IMG/VR virus record: IMGVR_UViG_3300028734_000030
Location: 1-48,376 of that record
DNA length: 48,376 bases
Source of the DNA: a virus
Reading direction: 5' to 3' (one strand)
A model generated the notes under the pieces. The model was given only the letters and a program-made list of their open reading frames with translations. It ran no database searches and was not told the DNA's origin. The number at the start of each line of letters is the position of its first letter. Positions within the stretch are counted from its first letter, which is position 1. Below, one piece after another: positions 29,952 through 45,850 of this stretch. Both the position numbers and the translations under genes were made by a program.

Positions 29952-30309
29952 TGAAGTAACGCTACCATGGCCACCAAAAGCCTTATCTCCGAATGGCCGC
30001 TATTGCTGGCAAGTTAAAGCGAAAGCCGGGAAGCAGTACAAACACGCTGTTTACTATCTGTGCAAAGAAGCCGGATTGGTTAATCCTGGCGGCGCTAAGG
30101 TCCATATAAGCGTTAGTTTTTACCCGCCTAGCAGACATACCTATGACCAGGATAATTGTATCAGTATGCTAAAATGCGGCCTGGATTCTATTGCCGAATA
30201 CCTGAGAATGAACGATAAAGACTTTATTTTACACTGGGTTTATCATGGCTTTAACGTGGACTTTAAAGGTAAAGTCGTCGTAAAAATAATACCGGAACCG
30301 GACATTTGA
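29944..30309 (+). CDS. rusA: RusA-type Holliday junction resolvase
   Basis: 121 residues from the ATG at 29944. LPWPPKALSPNGRYCWQVKAK at the start and TYDQDNCISMLKCGLDSIAEYL.MNDKDF in the second half are RusA hallmarks; D68, D70, K77 and D81 correspond to the acidic catalytic cluster and lysine. RusA dimers cut four-way junctions symmetrically, here probably to debranch replicating DNA before packaging. Overlaps the preceding small gene by 8 bp. The iteron region starts 40 bp after its stop. Confidence 0.88.
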   Translation: MDNEVTLPWPPKALSPNGRYCWQVKAKAGKQYKHAVYYLCKEAGLVNPGGAKVHISVSFYPPSRHTYDQDNCISMLKCGLDSIAEYLRMNDKDFILHWVYHGFNVDFKGKVVVKIIPEPDI

Positions 30310-30349
30310 ATGTAGAAATTTGGGGTCTTTATCGCGCGCGCGTTTTTGC

Positions 30350-30414
30350 TCTCTTGTTTTTACCTTGTTTTAAGCGTGTTGGAGGCCACGAATACCAAAG
30401 CTTACAGAGGACAT
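30350..30414 (+). repeat. Replicon leader, copy A
   Basis: About 65 bp shared with 45705-45769 in front of rep. The stretch from 30365 (TTGTTTTAAGCGTGTTGGAG and the next three bases) is identical over 23 bp, as is GCTTACAGAGGACAT (30400-30414); the part between differs at seven of twelve positions. In both places an iteron array begins immediately after it. A CG run (30333-30342) lies just upstream. Confidence 0.75.
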
Positions 30415-30510
30415 AAAGGGACAAAATGACAATTCAAAGGGACAGAATGACAAAGATAAAGGGACAGAATGACAAAAAACGGGGCAGGTGAATTTTATTT
30501 GTCCCTTTAT
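30415..30510 (+). repeat. Iteron array A
   Basis: Three direct repeats spaced 21-22 bp: AAAGGGACAAAATGACAA at 30415, AAAGGGACAGAATGACAA at 30436 and 30458. An inverted copy of the first twelve bases (TTGTCCCTTTAT, 30499-30510) lies just before the next gene, as in plasmids whose initiator represses its own promoter. Confidence 0.75.
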
Positions 30511-30530
30511 AAATAAAAAAAAGGTAAAAA

Positions 30531-30794
30531 ATGCACGAAACAATAACCCGAAAACAACTCAGCCAACTCATGGGGTTAAGCTACAACCAATGCGTACAGA
30601 TCATGCGGAACCAATGTAGTGGCACACTGGAACCCGAAGGGAAAGAGGGAAACATGATCTTCTACAAAAAAAGCGATGCGCTCAAATGGGTTCAGGAATG
30701 GGCCGATGATAGGGACCGAAAACAGCGCAAAGTAGAAACACCAAAGCTTATGTTTTTGAATATAAACCCGAAAAAAAACAAAAGAACTGTATAA
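30531..30794 (+). CDS. HTH protein behind iteron array A, possible origin-binding protein
   Basis: 87 residues. TITRKQLSQLMGLSYNQCVQIM, with MIFYKKSDALKWVQEW further on, resembles the MerR/excisionase-type winged HTH. The C terminus is basic (PKKNKRTV). It is preceded by an inverted half-iteron and followed by AT-rich DNA and two DnaA boxes, so it may bind the iterons or control the origin. Alternatively it is an excisionase-like regulator. It is too small to be a Rep_3 initiator. Confidence 0.6.
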   Translation: MHETITRKQLSQLMGLSYNQCVQIMRNQCSGTLEPEGKEGNMIFYKKSDALKWVQEWADDRDRKQRKVETPKLMFLNINPKKNKRTV

Positions 30795-30866
30795 AAATTA
30801 GACAATCTAAACAAACAGTATTATTGTCAACGCATTAGCAAATAAAAAACAGAGTTTAATAGACAG

Positions 30867-30889
30867 TTATCCACAGTTTTTGTGGATAA
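30867..30889. promoter_or_regulatory. Pair of perfect DnaA boxes in inverted orientation
   Basis: TTATCCACA (30867-30875) and its exact reverse complement TGTGGATAA (30881-30889), 5 bp apart, in AT-rich DNA downstream of iteron array A and the HTH gene. The consensus DnaA box is TTATCCACA. The two can also form a 9-bp hairpin, so an RNA role is not excluded. Confidence 0.6.
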
Positions 30890-30895
30890 AAAATC

Positions 30896-31111
30896 ATGTT
30901 ATTCAAAATGTTAGACTCAATACCCTTGTCGTTAGATAGGAAATATAAAAAAATGATTGAAAACGAAATTTGGATTATTTCAGGTTTGACCCTCTTTACA
31001 ATGGTTATTTTTGTTGCCTATCTGCTTTACAAGGCCGGCGGTATTCTAAAAATGCAGGAAGAACGCGACTTGCAAAGTAACTATGAGTTTTGGGATTCAG
31101 ACGACTATTGA
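30896..31111 (+). CDS. Small membrane protein preceding the endolysin, candidate holin
   Basis: 71 residues: basic N terminus (SLDRKYKKMIE), one transmembrane helix (IWIISGLTLFTMVIFVAYLLY), acidic C terminus (SNYEFWDSDDY). It ends 1 bp before the M15 endolysin start, the usual place for a holin or membrane lysis partner. One span is fewer than most holins have, so this is tentative. Confidence 0.5.
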   Translation: MLFKMLDSIPLSLDRKYKKMIENEIWIISGLTLFTMVIFVAYLLYKAGGILKMQEERDLQSNYEFWDSDDY

Positions 31112-31112
31112 T

Positions 31113-31526
31113 ATGAGCAGAAATATCAGTGATTTAGAACCCCATGTTGCACAACTTTGTCATAAGTTTGTGGACGAGTGTGCAAAGCAAGGTATTGAAA
31201 CGCTGATAACCTGCACGTACAGAAGCCTGGAAGAACAGGCCGCTTTGTACGCTATCGGACGAACGAAACCCGGTAACAGGGTCACTAATGCAAAGCCAGG
31301 TTCTTCCTACCACGCTTACCGTGTTGCCTTTGATTTTGTACCAATAATTCACGGTAAAGCTGTTTGGAATAACGCGGGATTGTTTTTAAAATGTGGAGAA
31401 ATAGGCGAGAAGTTAGGGCTGGAATGGAGTGGACGATTTTTGACTTTTCGTGAACAATGTCACATGCAGTATACTGGTGGACTTACAATTGCTGACTTTA
31501 AAGCAGGAAAGTGCCTAATAGCATGA
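31113..31526 (+). CDS. M15-family L-alanyl-D-glutamate peptidase endolysin
   Basis: 137 residues from the ATG at 31113. ITCTYRSLEEQAALYAIGR, then SSYHAYRVAFDF (H67, D74), then LGLEWSGRF..F.EQCHMQY (E114, H117) match the zinc ligands and catalytic acid of VanY/T5-type phage endopeptidases. It would cut peptide stems of peptidoglycan from the cytosolic side after holin action. No cell-wall binding domain is present. It overlaps the next small gene by 4 bp. Confidence 0.88.
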   Translation: MSRNISDLEPHVAQLCHKFVDECAKQGIETLITCTYRSLEEQAALYAIGRTKPGNRVTNAKPGSSYHAYRVAFDFVPIIHGKAVWNNAGLFLKCGEIGEKLGLEWSGRFLTFREQCHMQYTGGLTIADFKAGKCLIA

Positions 31527-31738
31527 AACCCGACAAGCTAATCCATCAGCATAAAATGATTCTTTATAATTTTGATGTGATTGTTGAGTATAGTTTTCAA
31601 AACGACAAAATTCGGGTGACAGCCGTAAAATTTCAACTTTGTGGCAGTCATGATTTTATACGATTTATTTCGGATAAAGCTTTACGGCTAATCGTAGACG
31701 ACATTGAGGCCGAGGAGTTAAAACGCAAGTGGATTTAA
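31523..31738 (+). CDS. Small unknown protein behind the endolysin
   Basis: 71 residues from the ATG at 31523 (ATGA overlap with the endolysin stop). Mixed strand and helix: MILYNFDVIVEYSFQNDKIRVTAVKF, ending ALRLIVDDIEAEELKRKW. No recognised family. Overlaps the next membrane ORF. Confidence 0.55.
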   Translation: MKPDKLIHQHKMILYNFDVIVEYSFQNDKIRVTAVKFQLCGSHDFIRFISDKALRLIVDDIEAEELKRKWI

Positions 31739-31854
31739 AAAATTTGTTCGATGAATTTACCAAGTGTCTTGCAACGCTGGCCTTGGTCGGCGTATTCGTG
31801 CTGTTTGTCCTTTCGATCTTCGGCGTGTTCGGCTATGGCGTGGTGTTAGGGTGA
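31729..31854 (+). CDS. Small membrane protein with GTG start
   Basis: 41 residues: a short polar N terminus (MDLKNLFDEFTK) and a long hydrophobic helix (LATLALVGVFVLFVLSIFGV). GTG at 31729 with GAGGAG about 12 bp upstream, overlapping the previous gene. Could be an accessory lysis peptide. Function unknown. Confidence 0.45.
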   Translation: MDLKNLFDEFTKCLATLALVGVFVLFVLSIFGVFGYGVVLG

Positions 31855-31857
31855 TGT

Positions 31858-32382
31858 ATGGCCGCAACAGGACCTAACAGGAAGCTTACCAAGCAACAAA
31901 TACAATTTGTCAAAGAATATTTACTTGACCTCAATGCAAAAGAGGCAGCGATAAGGGCCGGATATTCTGTAAATTCGGCTTGCGAAATAGGTTATCAGTT
32001 ACTTCAGAAAACTTCAGTTCAAGAAGCTATAGATAAACAATTACAGGAAAGATCACTAAGAACAGAAGTAACTCAAGACCGCGTTTTACTAGAAATAGCA
32101 CGTCTCGCTTTCAACGATCCCCGCAAAGCCTTTGATGAAAATAATACTTTACTACCCATTAAACAATGGCCTGATGAAGTGGCAGCTTGCATAAGTTCGA
32201 TCAAAGTTAATGAAATCATTGTCGATGGCGTAGCGATAGGCACCACCAAAGAGATTAAATTCTGGGACAAGAGCAAGAACCTTGAACTGGCAGGCCGACA
32301 TTTGAAGATGTTTACGGATAAAACTGAAATAGCTGGAAACTTGGGTGTTTATCTTCCCTATGCGTCCGATGAAACGGCATGA
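31858..32382 (+). CDS. terS: Terminase small subunit
   Basis: 174 residues. KLTKQQIQFVKEYLLDLNAKEAAIRAGYS is the Terminase_2-type HTH region, followed by SACEIGYQLLQKTSVQEAIDKQL. The middle (LLEIARLAFNDPRKAFD) and later DKSKNLELAGRHLKMF are typical of the family. It would recognise the packaging site and regulate the large subunit. Overlaps the large-subunit gene by 4 bp. Confidence 0.85.
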   Translation: MAATGPNRKLTKQQIQFVKEYLLDLNAKEAAIRAGYSVNSACEIGYQLLQKTSVQEAIDKQLQERSLRTEVTQDRVLLEIARLAFNDPRKAFDENNTLLPIKQWPDEVAACISSIKVNEIIVDGVAIGTTKEIKFWDKSKNLELAGRHLKMFTDKTEIAGNLGVYLPYASDETA

Positions 32383-33725
32383 GTTTTAAACTCACGCATA
32401 AGCAGGAAGAAGCACTCGTTTTTTTATCCGGTCCAGCGACACACATTTGTCTGTTTGGTGGCAGTCGTAGCGGCAAGACAGCCTTGTTAGTTCGGATGAT
32501 AATTGTAAGGGCTTTAAAAGCGGCTAACAGTCGTCATGCTATTTTCAGGTTTAGGTTTAATGCCTGTAAAGCATCAATCGTAAATGACACGTTTCCAAAG
32601 ATTATGGCGCTGGCCTTCCCCGGTGTGAGTTATACACTCAACAAGACGGATTATTATGCAAGACTTTATAATGGCTCAGAGGTGTATTTTGGTGGCCTTG
32701 ACGTTAAGGAAAGATCGGAAAAAATACTTGGTATGGAGTTTGTAACCATTTATCTCAATGAGTGTTCACAGATACCTCAATCTTCAAGAGACATGGTTGT
32801 TACCCGGTTGGCTCAACAAGTGGACCAGGAATTAACCGACAAGGAAACCGGAGATAAGCGAACAGCACAACTCAAGCCCCGCATGTATTATGACGCTAAC
32901 CCGCCGAGTAAAGCGCACTGGCTATACAAGTATTTCATTCTGAAAGTTGATCCAGATAGTAAACAACCGTTACACAATCCAGATGATTATGCGTCGTTTA
33001 AGATCAATCCAGTTGATAATATTGAAAATCTGAGTGATGGGTATATTGAAACGCTTAATGGATTGAGCGCACGATTAAGAAAGCGATTTTTAGCGGGGGA
33101 ATTTGCAGACGCAACTCCCAATGCGCTATTTACCGATGAAATCATCGACACCTGGCGCGTGGTTGATGGCGATGTGCCTCAGTTGATTCGTGTGGTAGTG
33201 GCCGTTGACCCAAGTGGATCAGGCGATGTTGATAACGCGGATAATGATGCTATTGGAATCATGGTCGGCGGCTTGGGTATTGATGGAAATTGCTATGTCC
33301 TGGAAGATTGCACGGTGAAGTGTGGCCCTGCTACGTGGGGAAAGATTGCTACCGATGCTTATGAACGCCATGAGGCCGATATGATTGTCGGAGAGATCAA
33401 TTATGGCGGCGCAATGGTACAGCATGTAATTCAGACTGCACGGCCACGGACACCCTTTCAGATGGTCACAGCAACGCGGGGAAAAGCCGTTAGAGCCGAA
33501 CCCATTAGCGCCTTATACGAACAGGGCAAGGTTAGGCACGTAGGAAACTTTGCAGACCTTGAAGAAGAACTCACCTCATTTAGTACCGTAGGCTATCTAG
33601 GTGAAAATTCGCCCAATAGAGCCGATGCGTTAGTGTGGTTATGCAGTTCATTGTTTCCTGGTATTGTACAACCGCGAAAAACAGCGCACAATCAGCCAAG
33701 AGAGCGCCCCAACTGGCGACTTTAA
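32379..33725 (+). CDS. terL: Terminase large subunit
   Basis: 448 residues. Walker A GGSRSGKT at about 27-34; Walker B-like TIYLNECSQ with E128; RNase H-like nuclease motif VVAVDPSGSGD with D277, and NRADALVW with D416. All parts of the packaging ATPase and headful nuclease are present and full length. It would couple ATP hydrolysis to DNA translocation through the portal encoded next. Confidence 0.92.
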   Translation: MSFKLTHKQEEALVFLSGPATHICLFGGSRSGKTALLVRMIIVRALKAANSRHAIFRFRFNACKASIVNDTFPKIMALAFPGVSYTLNKTDYYARLYNGSEVYFGGLDVKERSEKILGMEFVTIYLNECSQIPQSSRDMVVTRLAQQVDQELTDKETGDKRTAQLKPRMYYDANPPSKAHWLYKYFILKVDPDSKQPLHNPDDYASFKINPVDNIENLSDGYIETLNGLSARLRKRFLAGEFADATPNALFTDEIIDTWRVVDGDVPQLIRVVVAVDPSGSGDVDNADNDAIGIMVGGLGIDGNCYVLEDCTVKCGPATWGKIATDAYERHEADMIVGEINYGGAMVQHVIQTARPRTPFQMVTATRGKAVRAEPISALYEQGKVRHVGNFADLEEELTSFSTVGYLGENSPNRADALVWLCSSLFPGIVQPRKTAHNQPRERPNWRL

Positions 33726-33738
33726 AAGGTAAATTCAT

Positions 33739-33750
33739 CGCCGGGAGGCG
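33739..33750 (+). promoter_or_regulatory. Hairpin sequestering the portal ribosome-binding site
   Basis: CGCC (33739-33742) pairs with GGCG (33747-33750) around GGGA. The GGGAGG Shine-Dalgarno sequence is within the loop and 3' arm, 7 bp before the ATG at 33756. It could limit portal translation. A similar hairpin stands before the gene at 1609. Confidence 0.4.
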
Positions 33751-33755
33751 TTAAA

Positions 33756-35993
33756 ATGTTTACTGACACCGAACGAGAGATCGAAGATCCCCAAGACGCA
33801 GAAGCCAGCGAAGGCTTGTCATTGGACGAATTTACCAGTTTCTTTCACGAGATATTGCAACAACCCGCTTGGCGCAAACAAGCCGACCGCGAGAACGATT
33901 ACAAAGACAATAATCAGCTAGACAATGAAATCCTGCAAAAAATGGCCGCATTGGGCCTACCCCCCGCTGTAGAAAACCGCATAGGCTTGGCGATAGAAGC
34001 GATATTGGGGCAGGAAGCCAAGCGGCGAACCGATTGGCGCGTGATTCCCGATGGTGATAAATCGGGGCAGGAAGTGGCCGATGCTTACAATTACAAACTT
34101 AACCAGGCCGAGCGCAAGAGTCGGGCAGACCGGGCTTGTAGCGATGCCTACGAGTCTCAGGTATCCGTGGGCTTAGGCTGGGTCGAAGTCAGCCGAGAAC
34201 CGGACCCGTTTAAATACCCGTACCGTTGTACCGCTATCCATCGTAATGAATTGTGGTGGGACTGGGACGATAAATCACCGATGTTGGACAATGCCCGTTA
34301 TCAAATACGGATGCGCTGGATAAATAAGGATATTGCCAAGTTGCAGTTTCCTGATTCAGCAGACTTGCTAGAGCATGTCGTGTCAGGCTGGCCGGGCTTT
34401 GATGCTTTCAGCCTTGATGGTGGCCGTGCGACCGGGCTGGCGATGGCCGCGAATGTAGAACGCGGCTGGTCCATCGAAGAACAGCAATGGCGCGACGTTG
34501 AACACAAGAAAGTCAGGCTGTTTGAATGTTGGTATCGGGTTTGGTCGAACGCTTTAATCATGAAGATGCCCGATGGTCGCGTGGTTGAGTTCGATATGGA
34601 TGACCCGTTGCACCTGCAAGCGATCACGTTAGGAGGTATCAAGCCTGAATATGCTGTTATCAACAAAGTTAGACGAAGCTGGTGGGCGGGACCGCATAAA
34701 CTGGGTGATGAACCATCCCCTTACCGTCATCATCATTTCCCTTATGTCCCGTTTTGGGGGCATAGAGAGGACAGAACCGGCGTACCGTTTGGGCGGATAA
34801 GGTCGATGGTTTATCTCCAGGATAATATCAACGCTACAATCTCAAAGATACGCTGGGGCCTCAGTGCTACAGTCACCACAAGAACAGACGGTGCTGTACT
34901 GGGAAGTGATGAGCATTTTAGGGAAGAAGTGGCGCGTCCCGATGCCGATGTAATACTGGATGCTGCTCACATGGCGCAACCCGGAGCACTATTCAAGATC
35001 GACCGCAATTTTGAATTGAACCAGCAACAGTACAATATGCTTAATGATGCTCGTGAAGCCATCCAGAAAATAGGCGGTATATCTGAGGAATTTCAAGGGT
35101 CATCAACTAACCAAAATCAATCAGGGGTGGCGATAAATGCCAAAATCGAACAAAGCTCCCAGTCTTTAGCCAACATTGACGATAATTTTAAGGAGAGCAG
35201 GGCGCAAGTAGGTGAGTTGTTACTCGCTTTGCTCATACAGGATAGCGTAGGCAAACCAGAAGATGTGGTTATCGACGGAGGCGCGTTGAAAGATGACCAG
35301 GTTATCCAGCTTAATGCCAAAACCGTAGACGAGGATGGCTTGGAATATCTGAATAACGATGTAGAACGTACCATGATGAAAGTCGTTTTAGATGATACCC
35401 CGCAAACAAGCTCATTTCGAGTGCAGCAATTCTCAGCTTTGAGTGAGGCATATAAATCAAGCCCTCCAGAGTATCAACGTATCATTATGCCTTTTTTAAT
35501 TAACCTTTCAGACATCCCAAATAAGGAAGATATTGTTTCAGCGATTAAGGAAACAGACAAACAGCCAAGTGCAGACCAACAGGCCATGGAAGCCAAGATG
35601 AAAGAAATTGAGATTAAGATGATGCTGGCACAGGCGCAGATAAAGCAGTTAGAGGCAACAGCTACCAAGACCCTAGTTGATGCCCAGTTTGCCAGTATGC
35701 AGGCAGGCAGTCAGGTGGTGCTACAACCGGCTATCGCGCCGGTAGCAGATCAGGTATTAGTAAACGCAGGTTATCAGTCGCCGACCCCAGCTGGAATTGA
35801 CCCAGGCTTTAGCAATCAACCTTATCAGCAACCACAACAGCCACCGCAACCTTCACCTGAAGCCCAACAACAGGCAATGCTAGGACAGCAATCGCTAACG
35901 CCAAATACCTCGCCGCAAATGCCAGCCGTGCCACAACAGGCGGGTTCTGCACAGAGCGGAATTGAGACCTCACGAAATGAGAATATTGGGTGA
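33756..35993 (+). CDS. Portal protein, P22-like
   Basis: 745 residues. The sequence AALGLPPAVENRIGLAIEAILGQ, RRTDWRV, then QSGVAINAKIEQSSQSLANI and a helical barrel region match P22-type portals, and the C-terminal part (about 680-745) is a Gln/Pro-rich tail. The portal dodecamer forms the DNA channel and the site for terminase and the adaptor. The gene ends directly before the GIY-YIG insertion. Confidence 0.88.
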   Translation: MFTDTEREIEDPQDAEASEGLSLDEFTSFFHEILQQPAWRKQADRENDYKDNNQLDNEILQKMAALGLPPAVENRIGLAIEAILGQEAKRRTDWRVIPDGDKSGQEVADAYNYKLNQAERKSRADRACSDAYESQVSVGLGWVEVSREPDPFKYPYRCTAIHRNELWWDWDDKSPMLDNARYQIRMRWINKDIAKLQFPDSADLLEHVVSGWPGFDAFSLDGGRATGLAMAANVERGWSIEEQQWRDVEHKKVRLFECWYRVWSNALIMKMPDGRVVEFDMDDPLHLQAITLGGIKPEYAVINKVRRSWWAGPHKLGDEPSPYRHHHFPYVPFWGHREDRTGVPFGRIRSMVYLQDNINATISKIRWGLSATVTTRTDGAVLGSDEHFREEVARPDADVILDAAHMAQPGALFKIDRNFELNQQQYNMLNDAREAIQKIGGISEEFQGSSTNQNQSGVAINAKIEQSSQSLANIDDNFKESRAQVGELLLALLIQDSVGKPEDVVIDGGALKDDQVIQLNAKTVDEDGLEYLNNDVERTMMKVVLDDTPQTSSFRVQQFSALSEAYKSSPPEYQRIIMPFLINLSDIPNKEDIVSAIKETDKQPSADQQAMEAKMKEIEIKMMLAQAQIKQLEATATKTLVDAQFASMQAGSQVVLQPAIAPVADQVLVNAGYQSPTPAGIDPGFSNQPYQQPQQPPQPSPEAQQQAMLGQQSLTPNTSPQMPAVPQQAGSAQSGIETSRNENIG

Positions 35994-36105
35994 TTTAGTG
36001 TATACTGTAAGTGTGACTAGGCTCGACTTAATTACTCGATCCGAAAAGCGGCCATCCACGCCGCCGTCACATCCTCAACGTGGACTTAAAACAGTGGAGT
36101 TTAAG

Positions 36106-37023
36106 ATGGGCCAGTTATATAAAATATCGTTTAAAACCAGCGGTCGGGCTTATATCGGTATAAGTTCTATGTCGGCCGATATTCGATTCAAAGCACATTC
36201 GCATGAAAAGAATAATTATCCTATTGGACTAGCGTTCAAAAAATACGGTGTCGATGATGCTGTGTTAACCATATTAGCCGAAGAAAACGACTGGGCTACT
36301 TTATGTCAAATGGAAATAGCGGCCATTGCTGAACATAATACTAAATCACCGAACGGTTACAATATTACGAATGGTGGCGAAGGCGTTGTCGGAAATGTAT
36401 GCACGGAAGAACAAAATAAAGCCAATTCGGAAAGAGCAAAGATACGATTTTCAACACCAGAGGCTCGCCAAGCAAATTCAGAGCGTATGACATTGTATTT
36501 TTCAAATCCTGAAGCGAGAAAAGCTCAATCAGAACGAAAGAAAGCATATTTTGATTCAAACCCGGAAGCCGGAAAAGCACACTCAGAACGAGCAAAACTG
36601 TGGCTTTCCACACCAGAAGCACGTAGAGCTAATTCAGAAAGAGGGAAGTTAAGGTTTTCTAAACAAGAAGAACGTAACGCTGCTTCAGAAAGAACAAAAT
36701 TGTATTTTTCAAACCCGGATGCGCGCAAAGCTCAATCAGCAAGCCAAAAACTTAGGTTTTCAAATCCAGAAGAATGCAAATCTATCTCAGATCGCCAAAA
36801 GTTACGATTTTCAAATCCTGAATCACGCAAAGTTTTATCAGAAAGCCAAAAACTAAGGTTTTCAAACCCCGAAGAAGGCAGAGCTATTTCAAAAAGACAA
36901 AAATTACTGTATTCAACACCAGAAGCAAGAGCAAGACAAAAGTGTTATCTTGCAGTAGGCTGGGCAAAAAAAGCAGGACGACCATTCTCATATTTACCTA
37001 AAGCACTTAACAGCAACCTTTAA
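36106..37023 (+). CDS. GIY-YIG homing endonuclease with 17-residue repeats
   Basis: 305 residues from the ATG at 36106, with GGAG 7 bp upstream. GQLYKISFKTSGRAYIGISS is the GIY-YIG start, then IRFKAH and AFKKYGVDD..LTILAE, then KSPNGYNITNGGEGVVG. The rest is ten tandem repeats of about 17 residues (SER.KL.FSNPEARKA), a NUMOD3-like DNA-binding array. A free-standing endonuclease placed between the portal and a head gene. The relative at 20828-21898 is broken. It should cut the empty site in related phages and spread by repair. Confidence 0.85.
   Translation: MGQLYKISFKTSGRAYIGISSMSADIRFKAHSHEKNNYPIGLAFKKYGVDDAVLTILAEENDWATLCQMEIAAIAEHNTKSPNGYNITNGGEGVVGNVCTEEQNKANSERAKIRFSTPEARQANSERMTLYFSNPEARKAQSERKKAYFDSNPEAGKAHSERAKLWLSTPEARRANSERGKLRFSKQEERNAASERTKLYFSNPDARKAQSASQKLRFSNPEECKSISDRQKLRFSNPESRKVLSESQKLRFSNPEEGRAISKRQKLLYSTPEARARQKCYLAVGWAKKAGRPFSYLPKALNSNL
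36424..36936 (+). repeat. Ten tandem 51-bp repeats within the endonuclease gene
   Basis: Units of 17 codons (one of 18) with consensus NSERAKLRFSNPEARKA. Successive units start at 36424 and 36475 and continue to 36936. Divergence between units at the DNA level shows the array is not newly expanded. Confidence 0.8.
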
Positions 37024-37037
37024 CCCAGGAGAACACC

Positions 37038-37745
37038 ATGTACACCGTAAGATCAAACCAAGATGCTACCGCACCAACCCGTGTTGGTGAAAGACCACAG
37101 GCTAACAACTGGCAGGCAGGAACCGTCCAGCAAGTTGACGCTGGCCTGATCGGTTATTACCAAGAACACAGTGACGTTTTTACGATCCTTGGAGGCGATG
37201 GCGCATTAACCGAAGGTGTAGAGGTTTTAACCGGCTTAACCGCAGTTAATGTCACACAAAGTCTAGTCCAACAAGTTAATTTCACATTAACCGATGTGGC
37301 GATCACAGTGACAGATGCCCTCGCTTATGCCAGTAAGAAGATTTTTACCTTCCCGGCTGGTCGTATTTTATTGTTGGGTGTAACGGCTTCGCTTAAATGG
37401 GCCGTGACGACAGACCGTGCCGCAACAACAGGGACCATTAATGATTCAGCTTCATTGACGTGGGCGATTGGATCAGTCGCAGCCAGCAACATCACCTTAA
37501 GTTCAACAATGGTCGATATGTTACCCAAGCTAACTAAAGTGTTGGATGGTGCCGCAGCTGCATACACGGCCACGGCTTCAACAGGCGCATTAGCAGCAAG
37601 CGCACAGTTTGATGGGACTACAACCCCAGTCCCTGTTTATTTGAATGTGGGCTTTGAAACCAATACAGATATTGACCACGATGGAATTTTGAACACGAAA
37701 GGAAGCATCATAATGACGTATCTTAATCTAGGTGATTATTTATAG
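37038..37745 (+). CDS. Probable head structural protein
   Basis: 235 residues, Thr/Ala/Val-rich and beta-strand-rich (VDAGLIGYYQEHSDVFTILGG, TVTDALAYASKKIFTFPAGRI). No recognised family; composition and location between the portal and scaffold suggest a head or decoration protein. Its first codons (MYTVR) have a diverged copy at 35998, on the far side of the endonuclease insertion. Confidence 0.55.
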   Translation: MYTVRSNQDATAPTRVGERPQANNWQAGTVQQVDAGLIGYYQEHSDVFTILGGDGALTEGVEVLTGLTAVNVTQSLVQQVNFTLTDVAITVTDALAYASKKIFTFPAGRILLLGVTASLKWAVTTDRAATTGTINDSASLTWAIGSVAASNITLSSTMVDMLPKLTKVLDGAAAAYTATASTGALAASAQFDGTTTPVPVYLNVGFETNTDIDHDGILNTKGSIIMTYLNLGDYL

Positions 37746-37758
37746 GTTATTGATTAAC

Positions 37759-37980
37759 ATGATTTTAACAACAGAAAAAACGATTGTAATTAGAATGAGC
37801 CAAGAGGAAGCGGGTATTTTAATGGCACTATTGGGATTGGTTAGGGGGTATCCAGATTCATTAGGACGAAAAACGACAGACTCACTATTAGCTTTGCTTT
37901 TTGATAATGGCGTTTGTAAGGTATCAGCTTTTGATGAAGATACGCCGGGAATAACATCTATTGATACCAGGAACCGGTAA
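37759..37980 (+). CDS. Small unknown protein
   Basis: 73 residues from the ATG at 37759; the frame from 37732 overlaps the preceding stop. Contains MSQEEAGILMALLGLVRGYP and LLALLFDNG. No family recognised. Followed by about 200 bp without a gene. Confidence 0.5.
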   Translation: MILTTEKTIVIRMSQEEAGILMALLGLVRGYPDSLGRKTTDSLLALLFDNGVCKVSAFDEDTPGITSIDTRNR

Positions 37981-38184
37981 CATAAATGATTGATTAATAA
38001 GTATTTATTAGCAACTTAACCTATAGGTTATGTTAGCATGTGTAATCAGTTGATAGTCTCTAACATCTTGATTCTATTATTGCTAAAAAGTAAATAATGT
38101 GATAAATATAAGACTCTCTAAACCGTCTGCTCACGATACGAGTAATTATTACCTTCTACGGAATAATTTGAGATTTTATGATGT
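37981..38184. promoter_or_regulatory. Intergenic region with a 14-bp perfect palindrome
   Basis: AT-rich gap before the scaffold and coat genes. It holds the palindrome TAACCTATAGGTTA (38017-38030) and nearby TAATAAGTATTTATTA-type symmetry. A promoter for the strongly expressed capsid genes would be expected here. No gene seen. Confidence 0.4.
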
Positions 38185-39093
38185 ATGAGTAAAGATGCTG
38201 AATATTACGAAAATAATCCGACTGAGTTCGACAGTTTGACCGATGACGAGAAAGACGCTGTTTTAGGCGGCGAAGCTCTTGAGGACGAAACCAAAGGCGA
38301 AAGCACTAAGGAAAACAGCGAGTCGTCCGCCGCTGTAGAGGAAGAACCCGAATTACTGGCAAAGGACGGAAAGCACCAGATTCCCTACCAGGAGTTGGTG
38401 GATGCTCGTTCAAAGGCGGCAGAATGGGAGCAGTTCGCAAGCCAACAAGCTGAACTAATCAAGTCTCTACAAGAGGCAAAGATTCAGGATGCTGGCACCG
38501 GCGATACGAAAGCCCAAGATGCAGTTCTGGAAGAATATCAAGGCGAGTTCCGCGAAGTTGCCGAAGATATGAAGCCGTTTATTCAGAAGATGATCGACGA
38601 GGGAATCAAAAACGGCCTGTCGCAGTTTCAAAACGAGATCAATGAACGGGTCGCACCCGTTGAGAAGATCGCCAATGAAACCGCACAAGAGCGCTATTTT
38701 TCATCCATCAGGCAAGCGCATCCCGATGCAGATGAAATCGTTGACGACAAAGCTTTTAATGTTTGGGTCAACAAGCAACCCTCTTTTGTCAAAGCAAGTT
38801 ACATCGAGGCGCTGGAATACAAGCGCCCCGCTTCTGACTTGATTGAAATGTTTTCGGCCTATAAAGAAGCCCAAGGCATTAAGCCTGTTACCGATGTAGC
38901 AGGCAAAGCACAAACCATTATCGCTAATACCAAACGCAGCAATCCAGGAAGCCTTACCGATATCCCGGCAGGCACCACCGGAAAGCATGACGAGGTTGAG
39001 CAAATGCTGACGATGACAAGCCGCGAACTTGAACAAAAGTTTTTCGGAAAATCACCGGATGAAATTAACAAGATGATGGCAAAGTTGATATGA
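38185..39093 (+). CDS. Capsid scaffolding protein
   Basis: 302 residues, very acidic N terminus (EDETKGESTKENSESSAAVEEE), a long helical middle (SKAAEWEQFASQQAELIKSLQEA) and a charged C terminus, all usual for scaffolding proteins. It lies directly before the major capsid gene. It would direct coat assembly and leave the head. Called from composition and position. Confidence 0.75.
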   Translation: MSKDAEYYENNPTEFDSLTDDEKDAVLGGEALEDETKGESTKENSESSAAVEEEPELLAKDGKHQIPYQELVDARSKAAEWEQFASQQAELIKSLQEAKIQDAGTGDTKAQDAVLEEYQGEFREVAEDMKPFIQKMIDEGIKNGLSQFQNEINERVAPVEKIANETAQERYFSSIRQAHPDADEIVDDKAFNVWVNKQPSFVKASYIEALEYKRPASDLIEMFSAYKEAQGIKPVTDVAGKAQTIIANTKRSNPGSLTDIPAGTTGKHDEVEQMLTMTSRELEQKFFGKSPDEINKMMAKLI

Positions 39094-39104
39094 ACTAAAG
39101 AATA

Positions 39105-39145
39105 CTCTGCTTAGGGCAGAGAAAACGCAACGTCGATAAGAGACG
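39105..39145 (+). promoter_or_regulatory. Leader hairpins of the major capsid gene
   Basis: CTCTGC (39105-39110) pairs with GCAGAG (39116-39121), and CGTC (39131-39134) with GACG (39142-39145). Downstream comes CCCGTAGAAGGAAACAAT before the ATG. The leader of the gene at 46749 has a similar plan (GAGTC/GACTC hairpin, then CCCTAGAGGAAACAAT). Confidence 0.4.
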
Positions 39146-39175
39146 AAGCCACTCCCGTAGAAGGAAACAATTATC

Positions 39176-40459
39176 ATGGCTATGACCAATGTACCCTATG
39201 GGTCGGATCAAGCAATCCGTATCCAGAGCGCAGGCTTATTTGCAGCCTGTATGCAACGCAACACCATTTTAAACCGGCTCACCGGCCCAATGCCGATGCA
39301 GTCAGACGCAGAAAGCGCGATTCGCGTTCAATCGAGCAATAAATACCCGATTGTCCTCTGCAAAGATTTGAGCAAAACCGCAGGTGACGAGATCACTTTC
39401 GATTTGATTAACCCGTTAGGCGGCAAGCCTATTATGGGCGGTCAAAATGCTGAAGGCTTGGGCGAAGCGTTAAGTTTCTCACAAGACAAACTACGTATTA
39501 ACCAAACCCGCAAACCCGTATCCGCTGGCGATGCAATGACGCAACAGCGTACCCGATGGCAGTTACGGTCATTGGCACGGGCGGCGGCAGAGGAATACAT
39601 GAATCGTTTGATGGACCAGATTAGTTTAGTTCATTTGGCAGGCGCAAGAGGCTTTCACAACAATATTGAATGGGCAGTACCGCTGCAATCCGATGTGGAT
39701 TTTTCCAGCATCATGATTAATTCCGTCAAAGCCCCTACGAAAAACCGACACTTTATGTCCACGGGTTCAGGCATTGAACCGATTGCCGCAAGTGGCAATG
39801 ATATTACCATTGCTACAACCGATGTTCTTAACATTGATGTGGTTGATGGTATCAGAACCGTGATGGATTCCATGGCGATGCCGCCGCCCCCCGTTATTTT
39901 CGAGGGCGACAAGATGGCAAGTGATTCGCCATTAAGAGTTCTGTTGGTATCCAGCGAAAACTACACCTCGTTCCTGCAATCAACCAACTTCCGAACGTTG
40001 CAAGCGCAAGCCATGGCGCGGTCACAAACCGCAGGTGGAAACCCGCTATTCATGGGCGACGCAGGTATATGGAATGGTATCTTGATTGTCAAAATGCCTA
40101 AACCGATTCGCTTCTATGCAAACGACCCGATTCGATGGTGTGAGTCTTACTTGACAGAAACCGAAACAACGACAGATTGCGTACCCGCTTCTTTTGGTAC
40201 TACTCATGCCGTTGACCGTTCAATTTTGTTGGGTGGTCAAGCGTTGGCAACAGCCCTTGGCATGAACAACAAGACCGGCAATCCGTTCTTCTGGTCAGAA
40301 AAAGAACTGGATCACGGCGACAAGCTGGAAATTTTAATCGGAATGATGAACGGCTCCAGCAAGATCAGATTCGATCAGGATTATGGGTCGGCAGGTCATC
40401 AGTTTACAGACCAGGGTGTGATTGCCATAGACAGTAGTGTAAAGATTGCTGGCATATAG
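39176..40459 (+). CDS. Major capsid protein (DUF4043 / N4-gp56 type)
   Basis: 427 residues. MTNVPYGSDQAIRIQSAGLFAACMQ, LSKTAGDEITFDLINPLGGKPIMGGQNAEGLGE (in pieces), LRINQTRKPVSAGDAMTQQRTRW and LARAAAEEYMNRLMDQI match the DUF4043/N4-gp56 coat family, an HK97-fold protein. It should form the icosahedral shell around the scaffold encoded upstream. The strong leader (GGAAAC site) agrees with high expression. Confidence 0.85.
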   Translation: MAMTNVPYGSDQAIRIQSAGLFAACMQRNTILNRLTGPMPMQSDAESAIRVQSSNKYPIVLCKDLSKTAGDEITFDLINPLGGKPIMGGQNAEGLGEALSFSQDKLRINQTRKPVSAGDAMTQQRTRWQLRSLARAAAEEYMNRLMDQISLVHLAGARGFHNNIEWAVPLQSDVDFSSIMINSVKAPTKNRHFMSTGSGIEPIAASGNDITIATTDVLNIDVVDGIRTVMDSMAMPPPPVIFEGDKMASDSPLRVLLVSSENYTSFLQSTNFRTLQAQAMARSQTAGGNPLFMGDAGIWNGILIVKMPKPIRFYANDPIRWCESYLTETETTTDCVPASFGTTHAVDRSILLGGQALATALGMNNKTGNPFFWSEKELDHGDKLEILIGMMNGSSKIRFDQDYGSAGHQFTDQGVIAIDSSVKIAGI

Positions 40460-40513
40460 GCTTTTCTAAAGTTTTTATACCGCAACAACCATTAAAAATT
40501 TTAGGAGATTCCA

Positions 40514-40996
40514 ATGACTGCCGTCGTTACCCGCAAGAATATAAACAACAACGTCCCGTTTACCGCTGCCTATGGCAACGAGACTAGACTAACCTTTAAC
40601 CTGACACTGGCTACAGGCGGGATTTGGCTGGATTCAGACCATACCGATGCTATTCAGATCGCAGATACGCTGGTTCTGGGTAAGATACCGGCTGGCTTTG
40701 AGATCCACGATTGCCTAGTAACCATATCGGATGCCTTTACCGGCAGTTCAACCTGTTCGATTGGCTACAAATATTGTGATGGCGTGGATGCGACACCGGC
40801 TGAAGATGCCGCGTATTTTGTCCCGGCCACACAAGCCTTATCTTCAACGGCTATTTTGCGTAAAACGGGCATTAAAGCCCCTGCCAAACTGCCTAAAGAT
40901 GCCTACCTTACCCTGTTATGGGCAGGTGCGGCAGCGGATGCGGTCGGTGTTCTGGACATTGATGTGATTGGCAGGTGGACAGGTTTACCAGCTTAA
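40514..40996 (+). CDS. Probable head decoration or stabilising protein
   Basis: 160 residues, beta-rich, with an N-terminal MTAVVTRKNINNNVPF and Gly/Asp-rich loops (CDGVDATPAEDAAYFVPATQ). It follows the coat gene with its own AGGAG site and is followed by a terminator, the usual arrangement for an abundant head accessory protein. No family recognised. Confidence 0.6.
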   Translation: MTAVVTRKNINNNVPFTAAYGNETRLTFNLTLATGGIWLDSDHTDAIQIADTLVLGKIPAGFEIHDCLVTISDAFTGSSTCSIGYKYCDGVDATPAEDAAYFVPATQALSSTAILRKTGIKAPAKLPKDAYLTLLWAGAAADAVGVLDIDVIGRWTGLPA

Positions 40997-41014
40997 TCAA
41001 TAAGTTACAAACTA

Positions 41015-41054
41015 ATCACGGGTAATTTCCTATTTTATTGCCCGTGATATTTTT
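41015..41054 (+). terminator. Rho-independent terminator after the coat/decoration genes
   Basis: ATCACGGG (41015-41022) pairs with CCCGTGAT (41041-41048), extendable inward with a wobble pair, then ATTTTT. It could lower expression of genes downstream of the abundant capsid products. Confidence 0.75.
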
Positions 41055-41066
41055 AAGAGGTAAATC

Positions 41067-41447
41067 ATGATCGCTGTACGTTATATTGGCGCGAGACAAT
41101 TTTATTGCGAAGGTGCCTACGGTAGCAAAATCAATTTCACCAAAGGCGAAACCGTCCTGGTGCCTGACGACCTTGCGGAAAAACTGTTAAGGCACAAAGA
41201 CGTTTACGAACTCAGTGCAGACACGGTAGACGTACAACCCGCTATCATACCCACACCTAACCCTAACCAGGAACCAGATGAAAATGTGCAGGCTGCGCGT
41301 GATATGGTGGAGAACATGGACACACCGGAAGCCTTAGTTGAATACGCAGCGACTAATTTTGCAGGACATAAAATAGACAAGCGTATGTCAATCCCCAATA
41401 TGAAAACCCAAGTCACCCGGTTGATTGATCTGTACGGAGTCACCTAA
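41067..41447 (+). CDS. Small head-associated protein
   Basis: 126 residues. N-terminal beta segment (MIAVRYIGARQFYCEGAYGSKINFTKGETVLVP in pieces), a Pro/Asn linker (IPTPNPNQEPDEN) and a helical C-terminal part (LVEYAATNFAGHKIDKRM). Such proteins commonly stand between coat and connector genes. 2 bp before the adaptor gene. Exact role unknown. Confidence 0.6.
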   Translation: MIAVRYIGARQFYCEGAYGSKINFTKGETVLVPDDLAEKLLRHKDVYELSADTVDVQPAIIPTPNPNQEPDENVQAARDMVENMDTPEALVEYAATNFAGHKIDKRMSIPNMKTQVTRLIDLYGVT

Positions 41448-41449
41448 AA

Positions 41450-42112
41450 ATGACCGTAGCCGAACTGGAACGCCTTTTTAGAAACCAGTTTGGTGACAGT
41501 GTGCCAGACTATCTAATCTCACAAACCTTATTTATCGACTATCTAAACGAGGCCGAAGAAGAAGCCGCGTTCAGAAAAAACCTGCTATTCGACAAGACCA
41601 GCGCATTTTGTACGATTTCCGTATCACTTACTAACAGTATTTATTCACTAGACTCAAAAATATATGCCGTGTGCTATGCAGATATTGTCATCACTGATAC
41701 CAACTGGGAACGGTTACACCCTACAGACCGCATAGAGATGGACCGGATTAATCGCTATTGGCGCATTGAACACGGGACTCCACGCTGGTTTATTCAATAC
41801 GATAACACTCTCGAATTAATACCCAAACCTGAAAAACCCTATACGCTCAAGCTGGAAGTCTACCGCTTGCCATTGGACGCTATGTCTAGTGCAGGTGACG
41901 AACCGGAAATACAGCGCAACCACCACCGCAGTCTGGTGGAATGGACGCTCTACCGTGCGTTTAGTCAGCCTGATCTGGATATTCAGGATATGGGCAGGGC
42001 AAACGATCACTTGAAAAAATTTACGGCGATCTTTGGCAATCGACCAAGCGCCGATAACCAACGCAGCAATTATGCCAATAGGCCGCACCGAAACAAAGTG
42101 TGTCTGATTTAA
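41450..42112 (+). CDS. Head-to-tail adaptor protein
   Basis: 220 residues. It starts with the helical adaptor pattern (ELERLFRNQFGD....LISQTLFIDYLNEAEEEAAFRKNLL), a beta middle and LVEWTLYRAFSQPD near the end, as in phage adaptor (gp6/gp4-like) proteins. It would dock under the portal and bind the stopper or tail. Confidence 0.75.
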   Translation: MTVAELERLFRNQFGDSVPDYLISQTLFIDYLNEAEEEAAFRKNLLFDKTSAFCTISVSLTNSIYSLDSKIYAVCYADIVITDTNWERLHPTDRIEMDRINRYWRIEHGTPRWFIQYDNTLELIPKPEKPYTLKLEVYRLPLDAMSSAGDEPEIQRNHHRSLVEWTLYRAFSQPDLDIQDMGRANDHLKKFTAIFGNRPSADNQRSNYANRPHRNKVCLI

Positions 42113-42124
42113 GGAACCGCTATT

Positions 42125-43069
42125 ATGCCAGCCATTGAACTATCAAAAAATGTCCAAACAACCGGGATTAACGAAACCGAATTTAAAGCGACTGGCAATC
42201 CGCTAACGGGCGCTCAATTTGTTGAAATGGCGGCAGGTGTAGGCGGTTCATCAGATACAACCGAAGCTACACAGCTATCTGTCAAAACCGCCGTTGAAGC
42301 CCTGCAAACAGAAATAGGTGCAGTCACCGAAACCGCACCAGCAACCGATATTGCTTCAAGTGGTTTAAATGGAAGGCTACAACGTGTATCGCAACGGCTA
42401 ACGTCATTAATTGCGTTATTACCTACTTCACTCGGTACTAAAACAGCGGCCAATTCGTTACCCGTTACGCTATCAAATGATGGCGTATTTGCTGTAGCGA
42501 CAGGAACTTCAGCCGATGCGTTAGCGACCGATTCCAGTAGTGCGTGGTCTACTATTGCGCTATTGAAGGGTATTTTACAAAAGCTTATTACACCAACACC
42601 GACCGGACATGGTGGTACTGTAACCATCACGCGACCTGCGACAACCCCAACTTATTCAGCCGGTCAACTTATTGGGGATGTGGGCGGATCAGCCATCTTT
42701 ACCTTTGCAAATATGGGCAAATTCGGTGGCGAGGTAATGATAACGTCTATCGAACTTGAAATAGATGTAGCCGCTGTAAATAGTGGTATGACCGGCTTTA
42801 ATATCCGGCTTTATAACGCCTCTCCAACCGCAGCAGCAGACGCAGCTACTTGGGATATTGTCTCAGGTGATCGTGGTAAATATTTGGGGAAAGTGGCATT
42901 AGGAACCCCGATAGATGAAGGTTCAACGCTTTTTATTGATAATGACGGAATCAATAAACAAATCACGCTTGCCTCAACCAGTCTCTTTGTAGAAATGCAA
43001 ACCGCAGGTTCTTATGCGGCTACTGCAAGCGCAGTCTATCGCTTAACGATTCATACCACCGAGATTTAA
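42125..43069 (+). CDS. Virion structural protein
   Basis: 314 residues. The segment GLNGRLQRVSQRLTSLIALLPTSLG is frequent in phage structural proteins. The C-terminal half is beta-rich (GEVMITSIELEIDVAAVNSGMT in pieces). It lies between the adaptor and the carbohydrate-binding-like gene. A tail or head-tail role is inferred; the exact protein is unknown. Confidence 0.65.
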   Translation: MPAIELSKNVQTTGINETEFKATGNPLTGAQFVEMAAGVGGSSDTTEATQLSVKTAVEALQTEIGAVTETAPATDIASSGLNGRLQRVSQRLTSLIALLPTSLGTKTAANSLPVTLSNDGVFAVATGTSADALATDSSSAWSTIALLKGILQKLITPTPTGHGGTVTITRPATTPTYSAGQLIGDVGGSAIFTFANMGKFGGEVMITSIELEIDVAAVNSGMTGFNIRLYNASPTAAADAATWDIVSGDRGKYLGKVALGTPIDEGSTLFIDNDGINKQITLASTSLFVEMQTAGSYAATASAVYRLTIHTTEI

Positions 43070-43073
43070 AAGC

Positions 43074-44504
43074 ATGTTTCTTACAGCAGCTATCAAAACA
43101 ATTTTGTTTGGTGCAAACAAGAAACCATCGCTTGGCCTTGATTTCAGTAAAACGCCACAGATTGACCCGCGATTAACCTGGGCACGTAACATAACGTCAT
43201 CTGTTGTTAGCTTTGAAGGACTTATAAAAACTGCTAAAGCCAATGAAGCTAGGTTTGCTAATGCGAGAAGGGTTGAGAATTTAATACCTAAACCAGAAGT
43301 ATTAACGGTAGCAGGGGGTTGGACATTATCCAGTTGCACAAATCCTGGGACGCCTACCGCTGTAGCTCCTGATGGGACAACAACAGCGTGGGTTATAACG
43401 GCTACTGGTAGTGCAACTATTTATTTATATGCAACACAACCCACTGGAAATACAGCAACATCAAGCTGGTGGATTAGAAGAGTTACAGGGACAGGAAATA
43501 TAACATTTTTGACAGTAGGTGGAGCAGCAGGGTCAGCTTTAAGTGGGGTTTCATCAACATGGAAACGCTTTAGTTATACTGGTACGCAATCAAATACCAA
43601 AGCCTATATAGGTGTTCGAATCGAAACTACTGGGGATGTTATAGAAGTTTGGCATCCACTATTGGAAGATGTAACAGGTCAAGCCAATCAAAACCCAAGT
43701 GAATATGTATCAGCAAACGTTTTAGCAGCCCCATATCATGGTGCAGGAGTTGATGGTGTTAAATATTTCCCCACTACCAACGGCAACACAGTTGCATCTA
43801 GTGTGGTCACTGAAGCTGTTGGCACCCCGTTAGCAGGGCCAATTACTTTGCTGGCTGAGGAAGCCAGGACTAATTTACTGCTTAACTCAGCAACACCCGC
43901 AACTCAAAATATAACAACGACTGCACAAGCCTATACAATTTCAATGTCTGGAACAGGCACTTGTACACTTACAGGTACAGCGACAGGAACGCTAACGGGA
44001 ACAGGCGCAGGGAATAGGGTTTCATTAACAGTAACGGCTACGGCAGGGACACTAACACTTACTTTTGCGGGAACTAATACAAATGGGCAGGCTGAGGCAG
44101 GAACAGCCATGTCCAGTTATATTTCAACAGCAGGAACAGCTATAGCCCGTCCAGCCGATGTAGCCAGTTTCACAGGTGCAGCATTAAGCTGGTATAACGC
44201 AGAGCAAGGGACTTTTGTCGTTAAAGCATCTGGTACGGCATTTAGGACACCTAGTGCATTTGGTACGTTTAATCTAACATTACCCACAGCAGGAACCTAT
44301 GTTGTTACTTATAACAATACCGTGAAAAATGGTAGCACTTATTTATACACGCTAGCAGGAGGTGCAACATCTGTTGAATATACAGGCATAACGAATCCGA
44401 TAACCACAGTGACACTATTGAATGGTGGATTGGCTAACGTGTCTACTTTTACGTACTACCCAAAAGCACTTAAAGCTTCAAAGATAGTGGCATTATTAAC
44501 ATAA
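43074..44504 (+). CDS. Beta-rich virion protein, possible receptor-binding/head fibre
   Basis: 476 residues, Thr/Gly/Ala-rich. WTLSSCTNPGTPTAVAPDG, then WWIRRVTGTGNITF and the EEARTNLLLNSATPA signature recall carbohydrate-binding modules seen in phage fibres. Low-complexity TGT/TAT runs around 290-330. Host-surface binding is likely but not shown. Confidence 0.6.
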   Translation: MFLTAAIKTILFGANKKPSLGLDFSKTPQIDPRLTWARNITSSVVSFEGLIKTAKANEARFANARRVENLIPKPEVLTVAGGWTLSSCTNPGTPTAVAPDGTTTAWVITATGSATIYLYATQPTGNTATSSWWIRRVTGTGNITFLTVGGAAGSALSGVSSTWKRFSYTGTQSNTKAYIGVRIETTGDVIEVWHPLLEDVTGQANQNPSEYVSANVLAAPYHGAGVDGVKYFPTTNGNTVASSVVTEAVGTPLAGPITLLAEEARTNLLLNSATPATQNITTTAQAYTISMSGTGTCTLTGTATGTLTGTGAGNRVSLTVTATAGTLTLTFAGTNTNGQAEAGTAMSSYISTAGTAIARPADVASFTGAALSWYNAEQGTFVVKASGTAFRTPSAFGTFNLTLPTAGTYVVTYNNTVKNGSTYLYTLAGGATSVEYTGITNPITTVTLLNGGLANVSTFTYYPKALKASKIVALLT

Positions 44505-44564
44505 TGTTTGTGTTACCTGATTCAAAAGCCTAGAATCTAACAATCAAAATCATGGGATAAGACC

Positions 44565-45665
44565 GTGATCATAAATTCCTTCTTGGGAACCTACAACAAA
44601 GAAAACCCACGTTCAATACCGGACAACGCCTTAGCGTCGGCCATTGACGTTGACTTGAGCGATGCAGGGGTTCTTACACAGCGTCCTGGGTATGCACTCA
44701 CCAAAGCTATTTCCAACATCACCAGCGCCTACACGACCTTTGAAGGCGAAAGCTACCTCGTAGCGGGTGGTTATCTTTATCGTGTCCTCAGTGATTTAAA
44801 TTTGGCTAATTTAGGCGCTTGTACTGCTACGGCCTTTGCAGACGATAGGAATGTTCTCTATACCAACGACGGTTTTCGTATTATCGGCAATGAAATAAGA
44901 AACCTTAGCTTTACCTTCCCACGCTTCCCTCCCGTTTTAACCGCGACAACTGGCAGCTTACCGGCTGGCTGGTATTCAGCAACCTATACCTTTGTCTCGC
45001 CTACCGGCCTTGAAAGCGGTAGCGCCCCTGTTGAAAGCCTTGAATTAATGAATCCTGGCGGTATTGCCATCACTACCGATTCGCCCTCGGTAGGCTATAC
45101 CGTCAGAACTTATTTAACCGAAGCAGGCGGCTCGGTTTATTACGACGCTTCAGGGATGCCGTTAGATGATGTGCAGGTTTTGAGTGAACCATTCCCAGAT
45201 AGTGTTGAACAACTGGCCTATTATGACTCATCGCTCTATGTCGGAAAACCACTAGACGACAAACGGAGCATTGTCTGGTGGTCTAAACCTTATCATCCCC
45301 ACCTCTACGCACGGGATAGCGATTATTTCATCGTGCAAGGCCAATTACGGGCTTTGATGCCCACGTTACAAGGCTTGGTGGTGGCGACCAGTTCCGCTAT
45401 TTATGTGTGGTCAGAGGGGGCTTTAACGCCTTTGACAAGCTATGGAACATCGCAAGGACGGCCAATAGCGCGACTTCCTGATGGCAGCGTTCGCATATTC
45501 TCATCACGAGGCATTTGCGCGTTCCCGCCATTTGAGAATCTCACGGAGCGAAAAGTATCATTCCCGGCTGGAAATAATGTCAGCACGGCCATTGTTGAGT
45601 CGGACGGAATACAGCGCATGGTTACACTCTCGGACTCACAAGGGCCGGTTTGGAATGCTAAATAG
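44565..45665 (+). CDS. Probable head-completion or tail hub beta-propeller-like protein
   Basis: 366 residues from a GTG at 44565 (GGGATAAG upstream). It opens with SFLGTYNKENPRSIPDNALASAIDVDLSDAGVLTQRPG (in pieces), common in podophage tail-tube or stopper proteins, then repeated beta strands (ASAIYVWSEGALTPL). It is the last structural gene before the Rep_3 replicon. Role inferred from pattern and place. Confidence 0.6.
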   Translation: MIINSFLGTYNKENPRSIPDNALASAIDVDLSDAGVLTQRPGYALTKAISNITSAYTTFEGESYLVAGGYLYRVLSDLNLANLGACTATAFADDRNVLYTNDGFRIIGNEIRNLSFTFPRFPPVLTATTGSLPAGWYSATYTFVSPTGLESGSAPVESLELMNPGGIAITTDSPSVGYTVRTYLTEAGGSVYYDASGMPLDDVQVLSEPFPDSVEQLAYYDSSLYVGKPLDDKRSIVWWSKPYHPHLYARDSDYFIVQGQLRALMPTLQGLVVATSSAIYVWSEGALTPLTSYGTSQGRPIARLPDGSVRIFSSRGICAFPPFENLTERKVSFPAGNNVSTAIVESDGIQRMVTLSDSQGPVWNAK

Positions 45666-45704
45666 TGATTTTGAAGCGATAGCGAAACCGCCATTTTTCT
45701 TTTT

Positions 45705-45769
45705 AATCTTGTTTTATTCTTGTTTTAAGCGTGTTGGAGGCCGCGTAGTTCAATGCTTACAGAGGACAT
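45705..45769 (+). repeat. Replicon leader, copy B
   Basis: Counterpart of 30350-30414. Identical over 23 bp from 45720 and over GCTTACAGAGGACAT (45755-45769), then the rep iterons begin. It contains no gene. Its occurrence before two different iteron sets suggests a functional part of the origin or a recombination anchor. Confidence 0.75.
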
Positions 45770-45850
45770 CTAGGAGAAAATGCAGGTTGCTGGGAGAAAA
45801 TGCAGGTTGCTGGGAGAAAATGACTAAACTGCTAGGAGAAAATGCAGGTT
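45769..45850 (+). repeat. Iteron array B, in front of rep
   Basis: Four direct repeats of 20-22 bp: TCTAGGAGAAAATGCAGGTT (45769-45788), GCTGGGAGAAAATGCAGGTT (45789-45808), a variant beginning GCTGGGAGAAAATGA (45809-45830) and GCTAGGAGAAAATGCAGGTT (45831-45850). They lie about 70 bp before the Rep_3 gene, the standard position for initiator-binding iterons. AT-rich DNA follows (45851-45917). Confidence 0.85.

Follow-up and report, generated by a model that had tools for sequence, protein, structure and literature searches.

The DNA analysed here (the window, 48,376 bases) raises the question of why a tailed phage should carry, at two distant places, a nearly identical leader of about 65 bp, each time directly in front of an array of iterons, while a gene for a Rep_3 replication initiator follows only one of the two arrays. 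The window is a phage fragment, incomplete at both ends, and encodes a terminase, a P22-like portal and a major head protein, as well as a RusA-like resolvase, an endolysin and a small tyrosine recombinase; the phage belongs to methane-oxidising bacteria. Contigs from five other metagenome records were 100% identical to the window over the overlaps and confirmed the phage flanks of each origin separately, and both origins on one sequence were found in the window itself only. The first region, termed ORI1, and its neighbors are as follows.

29905..30309, plus strand: RusA-like Holliday junction resolvase, bordering ORI1 on the left
30341-30510: whole of ORI1, comprising the leader, its three iterons and the operator-like inverted half-iteron, without Rep
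30341..30414, plus strand: ORI1 leader (unwinding element and imperfect dyad), which aligns without gaps to Methylococcales plasmid-type origins
30353-30374, plus strand: ORI1 unwinding element, carrying CTTGTTTT repeats
~30377-30387 and ~30399-30409, plus strand: arms of the imperfect dyad within the ORI1 leader
30415-30432, 30436-30453 and 30458-30475, plus strand: three ORI1 iterons, AAAGGGACARAATGACAA, with a spacing of 21-22 bp as in the plasmid family
30481..30510, no strand: operator-like pair of GGGGCA (30481-30486) and the inverted half-iteron TTTGTCCCTTTAT (30498-30510)
30531..30794, plus strand: 87-residue winged-helix (HTH) protein, in the expected rep position, between rusA and the endolysin gene
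30867..30889, no strand: two perfect DnaA boxes in inverted orientation; the window has no other perfect box

The second region, ORI2, consists of the following elements.

44565..45665, plus strand: head-closure Hc3-like late gene, bordering ORI2 on the left
45696-45848, plus strand: whole of ORI2, leader and four iterons
45696..45769, plus strand: ORI2 leader (unwinding element and dyad), which aligns to plasmid-type origins
45769..45848, plus strand: four ORI2 iterons, consensus GCTRGGAGAAAATGCAGG, with a spacing of 20, 20 and 22 bp; copy 3 ends in ATGACTA
45918..46700, plus strand: Rep_3 (RepB-type) replication initiator, 260 aa (Pfam Rep3_N 3e-34, Rep3_C 3e-13)
46749..47219, plus strand: virion structural protein, bordering the ORI2-Rep_3 insert on the right

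The two leader stretches (30350-30414 and 45705-45769) agree at 54 of 65 positions without a gap, and blastn aligned the pair with 83% identity over 76 bp (E = 2e-17). Blocks of 23 bp (30365-30387 and 45720-45742) and 15 bp (30400-30414 and 45755-45769) are identical, each being the single pair of its kind in the window, where shuffled sequences are expected to give 0.00 and 0.06 matches, respectively. The first-pass annotation of this DNA had drawn attention to the near-identity and to both blocks, and both observations hold. The exact blocks were absent from the host contigs that were searched, and nucleotide searches of phages and plasmids returned matches at chance level, apart from one that led to the unwinding element of Psychrobacter pA53P4.

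Relatives of the phage Rep were sought in bacterial genomes and their upstream regions were compared. The nearest relatives are encoded on plasmid-like contigs of methanotrophs (Methylococcales), with 55% identity at best, and upstream of the related rep genes the elements follow one order: first a T-rich unwinding element in which CTTTTTTA or CTTGTTTTA units recur, then an imperfect dyad (GTTGCAGGCC...GGCTTGCAGC), tandem iterons that begin immediately after the dyad and are 21-22 bp apart, and, at the rep promoter, an inverted half-iteron. Over 74 bp, 11 plasmid-type origins could be aligned with both window leaders with no more than one gap column. When a sequence model of the leader was compared with 311 Methylococcales genomes, all 18 of the strong loci examined (E of 4e-6 or better) preceded iterons and a Rep_3 gene; a leader without iterons, which the first-pass annotation had named as the finding that would speak against its view, occurred at 0 of them. 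Because the leader aligns with plasmid-type origins and precedes iterons and Rep_3 at all strong loci, we take it, on sequence grounds, to be the origin core of a Rep_3 (RepB) iteron-plasmid family of Methylococcales and not something peculiar to the phage. The weaker matches to the model (E above 1e-5) were mostly without Rep and look like short dispersed repeats that match the dyad only. Dispersed Methylococcales repeats resembling the leader dyad (GGGCGCTACAGACTAGAAATATCAAGGCTTACAGAGCAGCG; loci L149, L150, L152 and L155), which lack an unwinding element or Rep, are possibly a transposon end or MITE. We claim no folded-structure role for the leader dyad, since its base-pair covariation was not above that of shuffles. 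As a separate observation, the part of a Methyloprofundus plasmid (L015, AP023241.1) that was read contains four genes annotated as Rep initiators, and several of these have iterons of their own.

The Rep_3 initiator that had been proposed behind the second array has both winged-helix domains expected of such a protein, and its start was assigned by homology to the ATG at 45918. It is 55% identical to the Rep of a Candidatus Methylobacter oryzae contig (L020) and 47% identical to that of a Methylotuvimicrobium plasmid, and it lies inside the methanotroph Rep_3 clade with the L020 protein as its sister (support 1.0). A piece of Rep from contig L145 is closest to the phage Rep subclade, and L145 likewise has an unwinding element of the CTTGTTTTA type and iterons of the GGGA type; residues K139 and S141 of the phage Rep are common to one GGGA-type clade, a likeness too weak for assigning binding. 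ORI2 thus combines an initiator with both domains, tandem iterons upstream of rep, an AT-rich unwinding element and the family leader. There is no inverted half-iteron between its array and the rep ATG, such an operator being common in the family and not obligatory, and the spacing of its iterons is slightly irregular. The GC content of rep (32.7%) and of the ORI2 origin (34.1%) compares with 49.5 and 50.3% in the flanking genes, and ORI2 with Rep_3 looks like an entire plasmid replicon that was inserted into the late region in the form of an AT-rich cassette. With a terminase, a portal and a major head protein in addition to this replicon, the phage combines structural genes with a plasmid replicon, as a phage-plasmid does. 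Partition genes were not found among the genes scanned in the window, which is incomplete at both ends, and the phage has another replication system.

26097..27600, plus strand: phage replication-initiation protein and P-like helicase loader (genes at 26097 and 26863)

Given these initiation and loader genes of the phage itself, and with no partition gene recognised, Rep_3 may be dispensable. The O-like gene region contains no iterons.

ORI1 has in cis the leader, the iterons and the operator of a Rep_3 origin. Since the nearest Rep_3 gene, the sole one in the phage, lies 15 kb away, we filed ORI1 as a Rep-less origin and not as a replicon; tblastn and a six-frame HMM search detected no second Rep_3 in the phage, including two contigs that extend past the ends of the window. 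The two-replicon phage suggested in the first-pass annotation is largely upheld, in that both regions have the anatomy of Rep_3 iteron origins, although Rep is present at only one of them. The three iterons and inverted half-iteron behind the first leader and the four iterons behind the second were as that annotation described. The operator-like pair of ORI1 is laid out as at the rep promoters of L145 (GGGGA...TTTCCTTTT) and L042 (AGGGACA...TGTCCCTTT). Both arrays share the core RGGA[CG]ARAATG in one register, and both fit the register of the methanotroph clade (xxGAxxAATTGAxxGT), in which the iteron sequence varies with Rep (ACGACAAATTGATCGT, AAGGGAGTAATTGACT, AAAGGGACGGATTGACGG and others). 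Copy 3 of ORI2 (GGGAGAAAATGACTA) and copy 1 of ORI1 (GGGACAAAATGACAA) are identical at 13 of the 18 positions of the whole unit, a level reached at 0.2% of random places, while most of the remaining comparisons between the arrays agree at just 9-10 of 18. Judging from the shared register and the 13/18 match, we regard the two arrays as diverged relatives. The earlier description of a conserved leader with different iterons and a different gene was accordingly right in that the iterons have diverged and the genes differ, but the iterons are not of unrelated kinds. Because most copies agree at only 9-10 positions, one Rep may not bind both arrays.

The reading that we consider probable is that both regions are Rep_3-family origins of Methylococcales, ORI2 being a complete cassette and ORI1 a Rep-less copy served in trans. 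Rep_3 monomers would bind the ORI2 iterons, and the bound protein would open the CTTGTTTT-rich unwinding element and load the host helicase; we infer from the anatomy that such replication at ORI2 could let the phage persist as a plasmid, like phage KS14. ORI1 has the leader in common with ORI2, and its iteron core is related; the same Rep, or one related to it, would bind ORI1 in trans, and ORI1 might act as a second start, as a titration or handcuffing (copy-control) site, or, like oriR of phage SPP1, as a late fork barrier. These three roles are considered because established iteron biology permits them.

Methylococcales Rep_3 iteron plasmids (for example, the plasmid of Methylotuvimicrobium alcaliphilum 20Z; L023, L065, L145 and L020) share the leader, the register and spacing of the iterons, the inverted half-iteron and Rep_3; in contrast, the window origins are in a phage, one of them is without rep, and ORI2 has no visible operator. 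Rep_3 replicons in phages are already known; for KS14, the prophage has been demonstrated to be a plasmid (PMC3091744). KS14 and FLC10, P2-like Burkholderia phages of the plasmid-prophage type, likewise have a Rep_3 gene with upstream iterons of 20-22 bp beside the portal gene, but they possess ParA, and their Rep is only 28-29% identical to that of the window phage; a distant second array was not found in KS14 or FLC10, just extra single iterons close to rep. The Bacillus phage SPP1 also has two distant origins, oriL and oriR, at both of which the initiator G38P has been reported to act, and oriR is thought to be a late fork barrier (PMC3485210). The initiators of SPP1 and the window phage are unrelated, however, and for the latter a single initiator at both origins is our inference. 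Extra sites act as titration or handcuffing sites for the chromid initiator RctB (PMC6090056). Salmonella genomic island 1 has an oriV with a Rep_3-family RepA, iterons and an AT-rich region with an inverted repeat (PMC7826253); it resembles the window phage as a mobile element with a plasmid-type Rep_3 replicon and differs in having one origin, near rep, and in not being a phage. A paper on a Rep_3 origin together with a distant Rep-less second copy in a phage was not found among the open-licence papers searched.

Alternatively, ORI1 could be served by the Rep of a resident plasmid, whose initiator the phage would parasitise or titrate as an incompatibility weapon. This is a minor possibility, to which the lack of an adjoining Rep lends some weight, as do the ORI1 iterons (GGGACARAATGACAA), which are unlike those of ORI2 and resemble the plasmid classes AAAGGGACGGATTGACGG (L042) and AAGGGAGTAATTGACTG (L014). 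In its 48-bp leader core, moreover, ORI1 is nearly as close to the plasmid-type origin L023 (41/48) as to ORI2 (42/48), and it shares 38-39 positions with L031, L029 and L065. Nevertheless, the exact tandem array of ORI1 (GGGACARAATGAC) was absent from the 311 Methylococcales genomes, and the leader motif AAGCGTGTTGGAGGCC occurs in ORI1 and ORI2 and in no sampled plasmid-type origin, which points to a common origin of the two. Next in likelihood, and rather unlikely, is that ORI1 is a functionless relic of an older Rep_3 replicon that has lost its rep gene, as might be expected from the absence of Rep in cis and from a phage gene filling the rep position. However, the unwinding element, the three regular iterons and the operator-like pair of ORI1 are all intact, and ORI1 is identical in three other metagenome contigs, although these possibly represent the same strain.

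The HTH gene lies behind the first array, where the first-pass annotation had placed it as part of a swapped module with that array. This pairing is contradicted by a related phage, known from four metagenome contigs and one Methylococcales genome bin (L123-L126 and L109), in which homologues of gene 29712, rusA, the HTH gene, the endolysin gene and gene 31511 stand in the same order, with a rusA-HTH gap of only ~53 bp and neither the leader nor an ORI1-type array within it. Since the gap in the relative has neither, ORI1 either entered between rusA and the HTH gene here or was lost in the relative, and for the same reason the HTH gene is independent of array 1 and reads as ordinary phage cargo and not as a part of ORI1. 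The inverted pair of DnaA boxes has a degenerate counterpart at the same place in L123. The place of the HTH gene between rusA and the lysis gene is that of lambda Q, and because it holds this place the protein is most likely a late regulator.

A doubtful extension of the preferred reading is that Rep_3 is a lysis-lysogeny switch, binding the ORI1 iterons and the half-iteron before the HTH gene, so that replication in the plasmid state would silence the late genes and dilution of Rep would free them; control of the HTH gene by Rep is conceivable because the operator-like pair directly precedes it. We give very little credence to the reverse arrangement, in which the HTH protein is a regulator or initiator that binds array 1 as an origin module of its own. 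The gene adjoins the array, and the protein is predicted to be a small winged helix that resembles Nu1, BldC and MerR proteins, all of these matches being weak. L123, in addition, has directly upstream of its HTH gene (5456-5490) a two-copy, 21-bp-spaced direct repeat, AAAASCAGCGAAAA, the only one of its kind in 6.2 kb and rare for that sequence (13 of 2000 random pieces); the HTH protein may therefore bind direct repeats of its own. But nothing in the ORI1 region matches the repeat unit well, the relatives carry the HTH gene without such a leader or iterons, and array 1 is in the Rep_3 iteron register and spacing behind a Rep_3-type leader, so that the HTH protein as the cognate of array 1 is largely rejected. 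A mobile or common entry element defined by the leader, which would allow origin modules to be swapped and would account for a leader kept while iterons and downstream gene differ, is so improbable that we rule it out, because in plasmid-type contigs the leader is integral to every Rep_3 origin at a nearly fixed spacing.

A phage living as a plasmid requires a plasmid replicon, and the joints are visible here in the cassette among the late genes and the Rep-less origin by rusA. With the pair of origins one can test if a single initiator acts on two diverged arrays, and if phages carry orphan iteron arrays in order to use, control or sabotage the replication of plasmids. The conserved origin core of methanotroph Rep_3 plasmids, now described, is useful for vectors in methane-oxidising bacteria.

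Several other genes of the phage were noted. The tyrosine recombinase (17020-17571, minus strand, 183 aa) consists of the catalytic domain only and could be an integrase remnant or a dimer-resolving recombinase. Two genes are homing-endonuclease-like (20828-21733, minus strand, and 35962-37023, plus strand), the second directly following the portal gene and overlapping its end. A contig of the same phage that reaches past the window start (L117) has a TnpB-like gene and an HNH-like ORF, as read from the translation. The plus strand also encodes a giant protein of 3408 aa with a large polyvalent protein-associated domain (LPD3) at 3945-14171. L123-L126 and L109 share the early block from the P-like loader to the endolysin, and neither the terminase nor the portal of the window turned up in the DNA fetched for them; early modules are exchanged in mosaic fashion between the window phage and this relative.
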